Assembly (NCBI GenBank): GCA_963205275.1 | Contig: CAUJIH010000006.1 | Coordinates: 62,001-126,000, forward strand | Reading direction: 5' to 3' | Source of the DNA: Verrucomicrobiota bacterium | GTDB lineage: Bacteria > Verrucomicrobiota > Verrucomicrobiia > Verrucomicrobiales > DEV007 | DNA: 64,000 nt | Shown: piece by piece, positions 5,512 through 10,049 of the stretch | Layout of the letters: every line of letters starts with the position of its first letter | Numbering within the stretch: position 1 is the stretch's first letter | Program-made: the position numbers and the translations under genes | The notes under the pieces: model-generated | What the model was told of the DNA's origin: nothing | The model's database searches: none | Seen by the model: only the letters and a program-made list of their open reading frames with translations

Positions 5512-5576
5512 CGGAATCTCGCTTTGCCTTGAATTCTGACCGGATTTGTTCTATTCTCGGCACTGGTGCTGGAGGG

Positions 5577-7667
5577 ATGCGAAGTGCTTCTGAATCAGAC
5601 GCGGGAATGGCAACGACGGACGGCATGAGAGTATTCAAGAGCGATATTTTACAGACTTCGGCGAGGATTCCTCGACGGACTGTTGCGATTTTGCTTCTCT
5701 GCGGCGCTTTTCCCTTCTCCGTATTTTCTACTGAGTCTAAACTGCCAGCGATCCGGCCCGTTGCGAGTCAACTGGTGACCATCCCACTGGAACGGATCGA
5801 TTCCGGCCCGAGTCCGATGGACGCCCAGCCAGACTGGACTCTCGGCACATATTCCATTCCAGCCCCCCGGAGCATCGTCCTATCCTCCGATGGCGAAGTC
5901 CTCGCGAGGAATCGAATCGGCTGGCGTCTTAGCTGCCGATTGGGAACGATGGCGAAAACAGCAGACGAAGCCATCGCTCGGATCGCCGCACTCCCGGCAA
6001 TTTTTAGCCCGGAATTGCCCTTCCTGTCGCTCTCTGAAGACGAAATTAGAAAGCATTTCCAGAATCGTCGATGGATTCCAATCCCGGTGACGGATCGGAT
6101 CGATGACGGACTGGTAGATGTCATGAAACAGGGCTTACCGGACGACTGTACCCTGTCTGCGTTTTACAGAAGAGAGTATCCACAGGGCGAACTGACGGCC
6201 CACCTACTCGGCTACATCGGGGTATCACTTCCTGATCAGCACGGGCCGATCGGCAAGGAGGAATACGATTTTCCTCCGACCGAAGGTCGAGCCGGGATGG
6301 AAAAATCGCTCGATGCTGTTTGGAAAGGGCAGGACGGTGAGGTGCTGCGACTCGTGGATTCGAAAGGCGTCTTGCGTCATCAGGACATCGTGCGCAAAGT
6401 CAAGCCCGGCGAGACAGTCGTGCTGACCATCCATCTCGGGATGCAGAAACTCGCGAAGAAGATGCTCGAGCGCACCGGGCGTTCCGGTGCATTTGTCGCA
6501 GTGGACGCCGATACCGGGAACATTCTGGCGCTGGTATCTCATCCATCCTTCAACCCGAATTTGTTTGAAGGCGGAATCTCTCAGAGCGACTACGATGCCT
6601 TGTCCGCATCGAAAGACGCCCCATTATTTGATCGAGCTGTCAGCGGGGCCTATCCGCCAGGATCTACGTTCAAGCCTTTCGTGGCTCTGGCGGGAATGGA
6701 TTCAGGCGTAATCGACGGTGCCTACACTCTCTATCCCGGGCCTGCTGGGATGATGATCGGAGGACGCTATTTTAAGAATCACAGCAGTTTTGCAGAGGGA
6801 CCGATGGACGTACGCTATGCACTGATCCGATCCTGTAATACTTGGTTTTATCAGGCGGGATTAGATACAGGGGCATCTGCGATTGCCGAAGTGAGTCGGC
6901 GCTTCGGATTCGGGACGACTCCCGAGCTTCCGCTGCCGTCGATCTCCAGCGGGAATATTCCCAATCCAGATACTTATAATGATCCTCGTAGCCTCGCTAA
7001 CTTCGCTATCGGCCAGGGGCAAGTGCTCGTCTCGCCCGTGCAACTTGCCCTCGCCATGAGCGGGCTAGCGAATGGTCGCTTTATTCCGAAAGCACGGCTC
7101 GTAAAGGAGATGATCGATCCGCGCAGTGGGCAGACCTCTAGTTCTGATGAACCAGCGATCGCCCATGCACTCAATCTTCGCGAAGAGGACATCGATCTGA
7201 TCCGCGATGGAATGTGGGGTGTGGTCAATCACCCTGCCGGAACGGCGGGGAGCGCCTCTATGCGAAATCCCGTGGTCTACGGAAAGACAGGGACATCACA
7301 GTGGGCCACAGGTGGGAGACTGCGCTCTCTCGCTTGGTTCTCCGGCTGGGTGGACGCTGACCATCCTCGTATCGCCTTCGCCGCTGTGACGATGGGAGAC
7401 AGGGGCGAGACTCTCAGTGGAGGACGAAGCGCAGGACCAATTGCTGCCGGCTTCCTGCAAGGGATTTACAAAGCCCCGGAGAGCTATGCCGTAAAACTGC
7501 CCGAAAGACCGTCTCGCGATGTACCATCCATCATTTCTGCGGCACCAGCTCCCGAGGAGATCATCGTAGAAATCGCTCCGGAAGAATCCAAAATCGGAGG
7601 CTTTTTTCGACGCTTGTTTGGTGGAGGTCGCCGCACCATTCGCAATCCTGCCCCCACTTTCCCGTGA
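5577..7667 (+). CDS. mrdA: penicillin-binding protein 2 (class B transpeptidase)
   Basis: A class B PBP that cross-links peptidoglycan during elongation. The sequence has the PBP2 dimerisation region with ELTAHLLGYIG and GRAGMEKSLDAVWKG, then all three penicillin-fold motifs: SxxK as STFK (Ser363), SxN as SCN, and KTG in YGKTGTSQW. A weak N-terminal hydrophobic segment (AILLLCGAFPFSVF) would anchor it. The start is uncertain: ATG at 5577 sits directly after GGAGGG, the frame is open back to a TTG at 5529, and ATG at 5625 is also possible. The stop overlaps the GTG of the next gene (GTGA), so translation is coupled to PBP1. Confidence 0.9.
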   Translation: MRSASESDAGMATTDGMRVFKSDILQTSARIPRRTVAILLLCGAFPFSVFSTESKLPAIRPVASQLVTIPLERIDSGPSPMDAQPDWTLGTYSIPAPRSIVLSSDGEVLARNRIGWRLSCRLGTMAKTADEAIARIAALPAIFSPELPFLSLSEDEIRKHFQNRRWIPIPVTDRIDDGLVDVMKQGLPDDCTLSAFYRREYPQGELTAHLLGYIGVSLPDQHGPIGKEEYDFPPTEGRAGMEKSLDAVWKGQDGEVLRLVDSKGVLRHQDIVRKVKPGETVVLTIHLGMQKLAKKMLERTGRSGAFVAVDADTGNILALVSHPSFNPNLFEGGISQSDYDALSASKDAPLFDRAVSGAYPPGSTFKPFVALAGMDSGVIDGAYTLYPGPAGMMIGGRYFKNHSSFAEGPMDVRYALIRSCNTWFYQAGLDTGASAIAEVSRRFGFGTTPELPLPSISSGNIPNPDTYNDPRSLANFAIGQGQVLVSPVQLALAMSGLANGRFIPKARLVKEMIDPRSGQTSSSDEPAIAHALNLREEDIDLIRDGMWGVVNHPAGTAGSASMRNPVVYGKTGTSQWATGGRLRSLAWFSGWVDADHPRIAFAAVTMGDRGETLSGGRSAGPIAAGFLQGIYKAPESYAVKLPERPSRDVPSIISAAPAPEEIIVEIAPEESKIGGFFRRLFGGGRRTIRNPAPTFP

Positions 7668-9604
7668 GTATGAATCAGGAAGACGAAACGGAACAGCTCG
7701 AACAACCAAGCACTGTAGTGACTTCCAAGCGCCCCTGGTGGAAGCACGGACTACTGATCGGCGTCCAGTCAATTCTGTTGCTTCCGCTGTATGCCGTGAT
7801 TCTAGCAGCAGCCACGATTGCAGGAATCGGTTGGTGTTATTATGACGCGAGTGCCGATCTCGATCTGGAAAAAGTTTCTCGTCCCGACATCGGTGCTTTA
7901 ATCCTCGACTCCCACAATGTAGAAATCGGTCGTGTTGGCTCACTGAACCAAATTCTCGTCACTCGCGAGGAGATTCCCCAGATTTTTATCGATGCCCTGC
8001 TGGCCGCCGAGGATCAGCGTTTCTACACCCATCCCGGCTTTGACTTCATGGGTTCCGTCCGGGCCGCTCTAGCGAATTATCGCTCTGAAGGCATTCGCGA
8101 GGGCGGAAGCACGCTCACTCAACAACTCGCCCGGGATGTTTATCGGATGGAGGGTAAAAGCTATGACAGAAAACTCTCTGAAATCGCTGCTGCGGTACGG
8201 CTGGAAGGGCGCTACACAAAAGACCAGATTCTCGTCAATTATCTGAACCGAGTCTATTTTGGCAGTGGATTTTACGGGCTTGGAGCCGCCGCACGCGGTT
8301 ACTTCGGAAAGAAGGCGAGCGAACTCACCATCGATCAAGCGGCCCTGATCTGCGGAATCATCCCCTCCCCCAGTCGATACTCTCCCTTGATCAGCCCCAA
8401 GCGCGCACGTGAAAACCGCGATCAGACGCTGAATCGTATGCGCACGAATGGAACGCTGAGCGATGAAGAATTGCAACATTTTCTCTCGCTCGATACTCCC
8501 GTCGCCAGCTCTCACGAAGACTCGCTGACACGAGGCCAAACCTCGTACCTCGTTGCACGAATCGAGCGCGAACTTCGCTCGGAAATCGCGACTTGGTCAC
8601 AGCCGCCAGCTTCACTCGATGGTTTTACAATCAGAACATCCGTCGATCTCTCCGGCCAGCAGGAGGCAGCAAAGACGATGGATCGCTATCTCAAGGAACT
8701 CCCCGTGTCTCAACCGAAAGATGATCCTCTCGAAGCTGCCTTCATCCTGTTAGAGAACCGCAGTGGGCAAATCCTTCTGTCCGTGGGTAGTCGCGATTTT
8801 CAAAAGAGCGAATATGATCGCTCAGTCGAGATGAAGCGTCCACCCGGCTCATCTTTCCTGCCCTTCCTCTACGCCGCAGCATACGAAAACGGGCCCTTCA
8901 CTCCTGCGACGATGCTCTTAGATGCCCCCTTCGATAATCGGGAGCTCGGACTAGGATCCGTTGGGGGAGTTCTCGGAGAATGGAGCACGGAAAACCCCGA
9001 CAATCACTGGGAAGGGCCGATCCCCTCCTCGATGGCTCTTTCCCAGTCGAAAAATTCCCCTGCGGCGCGACTTTCTCAGCATGTCGGCCTCGACAATATG
9101 CGCCGCATCGTGAAATCCTGCGGGATCTCCACCGATCTGCGCGATATTCCCGGCAGTCTGATGGGAGCTAGTGAACTCGGGCTGCTCGAACTCGTTCGCG
9201 CCTATACGGTATTCGCCAACTCCGGAATCCCTGCCCCACTTCCTCGACTGATCCGCGAGATTGAGGCTCCTTCAGGCAAAGTGATCTCACGTCCGGCCTC
9301 GTATGCTCCCGCTCGAGCGCTCAAGGCCAGCACGGCGCAATGGATTTCCGATGCCCTGCCCACTTCGGAAAAGTTACCAGCCACACGAGGAAAATCCGGT
9401 ACGACTGCCACCTATACAGATGCTTGGTATTTCGGATTTAATGATGAGTTCACTTGGGGATTGTGGGTAGGACGAGATCGTTTCACTCCCATTGCATCAC
9501 CTGCTTTCGGTGGGCGAATTGCTCAGCCGCTCGCAGAAGAGATCATGTCGAGTCGTATCAGACCCTCTCTTTCTTCCTCGACATCCCATCCTGACCACCC
9601 CTGA
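7664..9604 (+). CDS. class A penicillin-binding protein with intact glycosyltransferase and altered transpeptidase site
   Basis: A 646-residue membrane protein: cytoplasmic tail, one transmembrane helix (about 32-58), a GT51 domain, then a penicillin-binding domain. GT51 motifs are complete: EDQRFYTHPGFD, GGSTLTQQLARD and the NYLNRVYFG/YGLGAAARGYFG blocks, so it should polymerise lipid II. In the transpeptidase domain Ser396 is present but the motif reads SSFL, with Leu399 where SxxK needs lysine. SxN is SKN and KTG is KSG. Acylation by the stem peptide should therefore be impaired. The GTG start overlaps the PBP2 stop. Probably a glycosyltransferase partner of PBP2. Confidence 0.9.
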   Translation: MSMNQEDETEQLEQPSTVVTSKRPWWKHGLLIGVQSILLLPLYAVILAAATIAGIGWCYYDASADLDLEKVSRPDIGALILDSHNVEIGRVGSLNQILVTREEIPQIFIDALLAAEDQRFYTHPGFDFMGSVRAALANYRSEGIREGGSTLTQQLARDVYRMEGKSYDRKLSEIAAAVRLEGRYTKDQILVNYLNRVYFGSGFYGLGAAARGYFGKKASELTIDQAALICGIIPSPSRYSPLISPKRARENRDQTLNRMRTNGTLSDEELQHFLSLDTPVASSHEDSLTRGQTSYLVARIERELRSEIATWSQPPASLDGFTIRTSVDLSGQQEAAKTMDRYLKELPVSQPKDDPLEAAFILLENRSGQILLSVGSRDFQKSEYDRSVEMKRPPGSSFLPFLYAAAYENGPFTPATMLLDAPFDNRELGLGSVGGVLGEWSTENPDNHWEGPIPSSMALSQSKNSPAARLSQHVGLDNMRRIVKSCGISTDLRDIPGSLMGASELGLLELVRAYTVFANSGIPAPLPRLIREIEAPSGKVISRPASYAPARALKASTAQWISDALPTSEKLPATRGKSGTTATYTDAWYFGFNDEFTWGLWVGRDRFTPIASPAFGGRIAQPLAEEIMSSRIRPSLSSSTSHPDHP

Positions 9605-9638: not shown

Positions 9639-10049
9639 ATGCGAATTTTTTCTCTGGTCTGTTCTCTGATTCTCCTCATCATCGGGATCATCTCATGGCA
9701 GGGTTGGGATGCGATGGGATGGCCCCCTGCAGACTGGGCTGCTCCGTTGCCCGTTTTTGTGGGGGGAGCGATGATGACAGGGACTCTTCTATCCTTTCTT
9801 CTGCGGAGAACAGGTCTTCAAATCGCCTTTCTCTCCGCCCTCTGTGGTATAGGTCTCGCCATCGGCAGGATGCTGCCTTCTTGGCTCAAGGAGGCCTTCA
9901 ATCCGTCTGATTTAGACAATCAATTCCTGATTTCGATGGCTGGACTTTGCACCGTGTATGTCCTTCTGTCCGCGATCCGTTTCATCTTTCGGCCTCGTCC
10001 GATTCAGAACGCAGGGGTGGAACCACCGATCCAAGCTGACGAAGATTGA
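9639..10049 (+). CDS. small integral membrane protein
   Basis: A 136-residue protein with four hydrophobic segments: LVCSLILLIIGIISW, a second around the PLPVFVGGAMMTGTLLSFL stretch, a third around AFLSALCGIGLAIG and a fourth around LCTVYVLLSAIRFIF, followed by a short polar tail. The frame is open further upstream, but that part overlaps the PBP1 gene in another frame, so the ATG at 9639 is chosen. It lies 34 bases after PBP1 and probably ends the PBP2-PBP1 operon. No known family recognised; a cell-envelope role is inferred from its neighbours only. Confidence 0.75.
   Translation: MRIFSLVCSLILLIIGIISWQGWDAMGWPPADWAAPLPVFVGGAMMTGTLLSFLLRRTGLQIAFLSALCGIGLAIGRMLPSWLKEAFNPSDLDNQFLISMAGLCTVYVLLSAIRFIFRPRPIQNAGVEPPIQADED

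Follow-up and report, generated by a model that had tools for sequence, protein, structure and literature searches.

A conserved class A penicillin-binding protein lacking the transpeptidase lysine, and its putative PBP2 partner, in Verrucomicrobiota

The class A PBP gene and its neighbours

The window (the whole stretch of 64,000 nt analysed here, from contig CAUJIH010000006.1 of a Verrucomicrobiota bacterium) contains a gene for a PBP2-like class B penicillin-binding protein (PBP) followed directly by a gene for a class A PBP (Table 1). The end of the first gene overlaps the start of the second, as the preliminary description of this DNA had reported; the overlap is 4 nt (GTGA).

The class A protein has one membrane helix, at its N-terminus, and matches the Pfam models Transgly (193 bits) and Transpeptidase (62.5 bits). 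Its GT51 domain was described earlier as having intact motifs; indeed, the catalytic residues E116, D117, S149, Q154, K170 and E173 do not vary in any of the 77 sequences aligned. The SKN and KSG boxes of the transpeptidase domain were also found as described (they lie at residues 462 and 577), and so was the SSFL reading of the SxxK box, with Leu in place of Lys. Thus, among the features that define class A PBPs, the protein has a GT51 domain with its catalytic residues as well as SxN and KTG motifs, and does not have the Ser and Lys pair of the SxxK box. Its score against TIGR02074 (PBP1A) is 410.5 bits, below the cut-off of 508.75; against TIGR02070 (monofunctional glycosyltransferase, GT) it is 133 bits, below the cut-off of 182.65, and a transpeptidase fold is present.

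The upstream gene product contains PBP_dimer and transpeptidase domains, the latter with SxxK, SxN and KTG motifs. It scores 368 bits against TIGR03423 (pbp2_mrdA), below the cut-off of 455, and is PBP2-like by best match only. The true start of this gene is probably a later ATG.

Table 1. Features of the locus, and positions of fusion ORFs found in other families
Feature	Position	Strand	Evidence
PBP2 (class B), STFK, SCN and KTG intact	5529..7667	+	ORF, Pfam, motif alignment
Class A PBP, GT51 and pseudo-transpeptidase, 646 aa	7664..9604	+	ORF, translation, Pfam, AlphaFold2
GT51 glycosyltransferase domain, residues 89-259	7928..8440	+	Pfam PF00912; invariant catalytic residues
E116 codon of the GT51 domain, class A PBP	8009-8011	+	
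Transpeptidase-fold domain, residues 359-593, putatively catalytically dead	8738..9442	+	Pfam match, predicted fold
SxxK box, S396-S-F-L399, codons TCA TCT TTC CTG	8849..8860	+	Sequence; clade-wide
Lys codon position of the SxxK box, CTG (Leu)	8858-8860	+	
SxN motif, SKN, residues 462-464, kept	9047..9055	+	
KTG motif, KSG, residues 577-579, kept	9392..9400	+	
Small predicted membrane protein, about four hydrophobic segments	9639..10049	+	Downstream conservation limited to the five closest pair loci
Fusion ORFs	L150:2-3784, L155:126-4178, L156:1-4026, L157:1524-5570, L158:2182-6321, L159:57-4061		

Loss of the SxxK lysine among homologues

An alignment with Lys-bearing Verrucomicrobiota class A PBPs, the check suggested together with the preliminary description, showed L399 in precisely the column of the catalytic Lys. 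In the 19-member clade of the window protein this column is occupied by Leu (nine proteins), Phe (four), Ile (two), Ala (two), Ser (one) and Thr (one); Lys occurs in 0/19. Since Lys is missing in all members of the clade, and these come from separately assembled genomes, Leu at position 399 is beyond chance. A sequencing error at codon 399 is ruled out, as the 18 further members lack Lys too. Among the 11 closest orthologues (down to 41% identity) there is no variation at S396, S462-K463-N464 or S578-G579-T580; residue 399 is bulky and hydrophobic throughout (L, F or I), and K463 is the sole invariant Lys of the transpeptidase domain.

Values of dN/dS were read from the three closest comparisons, with more distant ones being saturated at synonymous sites; they were ∼0.10-0.14 for the dead transpeptidase domain, ∼0.03-0.10 for the GT domain and ∼0.09-0.14 for PBP2. 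The AlphaFold2 model of the class A PBP, built with a 77-sequence alignment, had a pLDDT of 91.4 and a pTM of 0.86, and its best match in the PDB was Escherichia coli PBP1b (E 5e-33). The transpeptidase domain is maintained, not eroding; a pseudogene or a decaying domain is ruled out by the low dN/dS, the unbroken frames and the confident predicted fold.

A wider group of class A PBPs with decayed SxxK motifs

The genome containing the window encodes five class A PBPs, three with an intact SxxK box (STFK, SVFK and STLK) and two dead by this motif. The second dead paralogue, a protein of 912 aa (G000:C6:48007-49872; loci L003 and L012), has T-A-F-T and GKN, and neither Ser nor Lys of the SxxK box remains. 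A decayed SxxK box occurs in many class A PBPs across the class Verrucomicrobiae, in most cases with Thr where Ser would stand; S-x-x-K is present without exception in the canonical set (34 rows of the motif table) and was also found in class A PBPs sampled from other classes of the phylum. The loss of Lys pointed out in the preliminary description is therefore real, though not private to the window gene: it is shared by a large set of proteins in Verrucomicrobiae.

Within this group, long proteins (mostly 850-930 aa) have Thr at the Ser position in 45/45 cases. Their Lys position is variable (K, T, M, L, F, H, A or Q), with Lys kept in six. A long dead paralogue is present in most relatives examined, so that this pattern is not accessory. 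We looked for PBP2 genes next to the long dead paralogues and found none; hence, a dead transpeptidase does not alone imply a linked PBP2. In deeper relatives, losses extend to Ser, SxN and KTG.

Two quick trees united the window-type and the long proteins in one clade (SH-aLRT 97 and 96); a more careful tree, with long-branched PBP1C-like proteins as the root, split them, and the AU test did not reject a single clade (p 0.30). Proteins bearing Ser in the SxxK box are nested among those bearing Thr, and Ser396 is therefore most parsimoniously explained as a Thr-to-Ser change. A reading in which the lysine alone was lost is therefore too simple: S396 itself is, by parsimony, secondary and not the ancestral nucleophile.

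Several further class A genes were observed. Proteins of 580-618 aa with a more eroded transpeptidase part were seen at loci L097, L099, L100, L101 and L170; at L099-L101 the gene lies directly behind that of a canonical class A PBP. A small-genome relative assembled as a single contig (G035, probably Akkermansia) has a dead transpeptidase in two of its three class A PBPs (C1:220455, C1:1448246 and C1:2538338). In the class-wide sample, a GT51 match was absent from 40 of the 67 genomes.

Linkage of the class A gene to PBP2

In 17/17 testable loci of the window's subclade, i.e. those on contigs reaching upstream (two other loci stop at contig ends), the gene immediately before the class A gene encodes a window-type PBP2. 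SxxK and KTG are intact in all 17 paired PBP2s, and the SxN pattern was seen in 16. Groupings in the PBP2 tree match those in the class A tree, even for three different pairs within one genome (G006), which indicates that the two genes were inherited together. Among shared neighbours we found no conserved regulator and no larger operon; what the loci have in common is PBP2 and, in the closest ones, the small membrane gene. Additional PBP2 copies of the window type, beside which no class A gene of that type was detected, were located at G013:C197, G001:C427, G010:C81, G020:C1 and G019:C167.

The window genome has four class B PBPs and two SEDS genes, and the PBP2 of the pair was counted as additional on this ground. 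No extra SEDS polymerase was found to accompany it, SEDS matches numbering at most two in every pair-bearing genome. The idea that GT51 substitutes for a missing RodA is ruled out by the two SEDS genes of the window genome.

The N-terminus of the window PBP2 has a short hydrophobic core and a signal-peptidase-like site. The resemblance of the N-termini of the pair PBP2s to signal peptides rather than to class B anchors is suggestive only. Another class B PBP of the window genome (G000:C83, L094) likewise has an N-terminus that looks like a cleavable signal peptide and unlike a membrane anchor.

Natural fusions of class A PBP and PBP2

Six fusion ORFs, typically of about 1340 aa and ranging from 1261 to 1380 aa, turned up in the class-wide sample (Table 1); the families concerned are f22, f76, f80 and f82. 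Their domain order is GT51, dead transpeptidase, PBP_dimer and then a PBP2 transpeptidase with intact SxxK, SxN and KTG/KSG. The SxxK box of the dead transpeptidase reads SLLQ, SVLQ, ALLQ or YLLS, and its SxN and KTG are altered too. Apart from an N-terminal one (missing in the N-truncated L150), no hydrophobic segment was found; the PBP2 half thus lacks an anchor of its own. Genomes with fusions keep two SEDS genes plus separate class B PBPs; in these genomes and the window genome, three to four class B PBPs stand against two SEDS genes.

In a quick tree with long branches the fusions branch apart from the window's group, and the class A part precedes PBP2, in the order opposite to that of the window pair. 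Both observations make more than one origin of class A-PBP2 coupling probable. As to one common origin of every dead class A protein, the results diverge: the AU test does not reject one clade, the careful tree splits the group, and the fusions take a separate position.

Proposed division of labour and alternatives

The preliminary description had suggested a polymerase-only class A protein with PBP2 as the cross-linker. Judged from sequence data, this reading gains support from the uninterrupted linkage, the congruent trees, the fusions, the absence of an added SEDS gene and purifying selection. We consider it likely that the class A PBP polymerizes glycan and carries a pseudo-transpeptidase domain, and that the PBP2 encoded upstream does the cross-linking. 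The GT51 domain would polymerize lipid II. The transpeptidase domain, which keeps its predicted fold and most motifs of the groove, would not be expected to be acylated, because the general-base lysine is replaced by Leu; some residual chemistry is conceivable given the strong conservation of S396, SKN and KSG in close orthologues. Strands made by the class A PBP would then be cross-linked by its neighbour, and the pseudo-transpeptidase may dock or regulate PBP2, possibly by physical contact, or may bind stem peptides. Two observations weigh against this account: several genomes have pair-type PBP2 copies that lack a class A neighbour, and no PBP2 was found beside the long dead paralogues.

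Such a division of labour between GT51 and PBP2 is biochemically plausible in view of two precedents. Pneumococcal PBP2b and PBP2x cross-link together with a class A PBP whose transpeptidase was inactivated by mutation (PMC4632607), and in MRSA, PBP2A is believed to rely on the GT domain belonging to Staphylococcus aureus PBP2 (PMC12369386). A more far-reaching version, to which we give slightly less than even weight, is a SEDS-independent two-part synthase, in which a naturally transpeptidase-dead class A PBP would dock a class B transpeptidase that is devoted to it and has no anchor. One order of Verrucomicrobiae would have this synthase as an operon, and other families would have it as a separately arisen single-chain fusion (GT51-dead transpeptidase-PBP2).

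The same conservation of the groove residues, together with the bulky hydrophobic residue at position 399, could also be expected of a ligand-binding or sensing domain, whose non-covalent binding of stem peptides regulates its own GT or other synthases; PBP2 would then work mostly with RodA, and the gene linkage would be regulatory only. The long dead paralogues, which stand alone, fit such a role. However, the fusions with PBP2 in other families and the 17/17 linkage point to a direct partnership, and the PBP2 of the pair has no obvious class B anchor; we regard a sensing role as the main explanation as unlikely.

Still less probable, in our view, is that the pair serves mainly as a β-lactam tolerance module, a non-acylatable class A polymerase with an extra class B enzyme. 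The logic would be that of the MRSA pair cited above, and the pair is accessory in its distribution among relatives. Against this, we recognized no bla- or mec-type regulator among the shared neighbours, the motifs of PBP2 are ordinary, and the long dead paralogue, being present in most relatives examined, is not accessory. Tolerance could be the reason for selection, and as such is compatible with a polymerase served by PBP2.

A transpeptidase still active with another residue as the base for Ser396 would account for the retained Ser396, SKN and KSG, with the invariant K463 as a candidate, and is very improbable: in this fold the central SxN residue is not known to act as a base, Ser, SxN and KTG are all lost in deeper relatives, and Ser396 is most parsimoniously secondary.

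Relation to known systems and significance

With bifunctional class A PBPs (PBP1a/PBP1b; TIGR02074; PDB 5hlb and 3udf) the window protein shares the single N-terminal membrane helix, the intact GT51 domain and the transpeptidase fold. It differs in the replacement of Lys (and, in most of its more distant relatives, of Ser as well) and falls below the TIGR02074 cut-off. Polymerization without cross-linking, expected for the window protein, is what monofunctional GTs of the MtgA type (TIGR02070) do; unlike these, it retains a folded, conserved pseudo-transpeptidase domain, and it misses their cut-off too.

In S. aureus (the GT of PBP2 with PBP2A) and Streptococcus pneumoniae (a transpeptidase mutant of class A PBP2A with PBP2b/PBP2x), a class A GT supplies the glycan for cross-linking by a class B enzyme (PMC12369386, PMC4632607), as we propose here. 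There the class A transpeptidase is blocked by a drug or by an engineered mutation, whereas in the window family the presumed inactivation occurs in nature, has become fixed and goes with genetic coupling to a class B partner. RodA-PBP2 and FtsW-FtsI (SEDS with class B PBP) likewise pair a polymerase with a class B transpeptidase; the polymerase proposed here is GT51 rather than SEDS, and an obvious class B membrane anchor is lacking in the PBP2 of the pair.

We found no earlier description of naturally transpeptidase-dead class A PBPs in the open-licence literature, which is weak evidence of novelty; a natural, conserved and genetically coupled split between a class A polymerase and a class B cross-linker appears to be new.

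Genome surveys treat class A PBPs as bifunctional. In one of them, a retained class A PBP gene was the ground for assigning classical peptidoglycan to Akkermansia, apparently with no regard to the transpeptidase motif (PMC8406291). Here, a dead cross-linking site lies in a domain kept under selection in a large group of class A proteins, among them those of small-genome relatives, probably Akkermansia. The data suggest that in this Verrucomicrobiota family the two jobs are split between partner proteins. If the pairing is true, it would provide an example from nature, open to testing, of a GT51 polymerase that works for a class B transpeptidase, would bear on the question of why GT and transpeptidase domains are fused, and would predict class A proteins beyond acylation by β-lactams.
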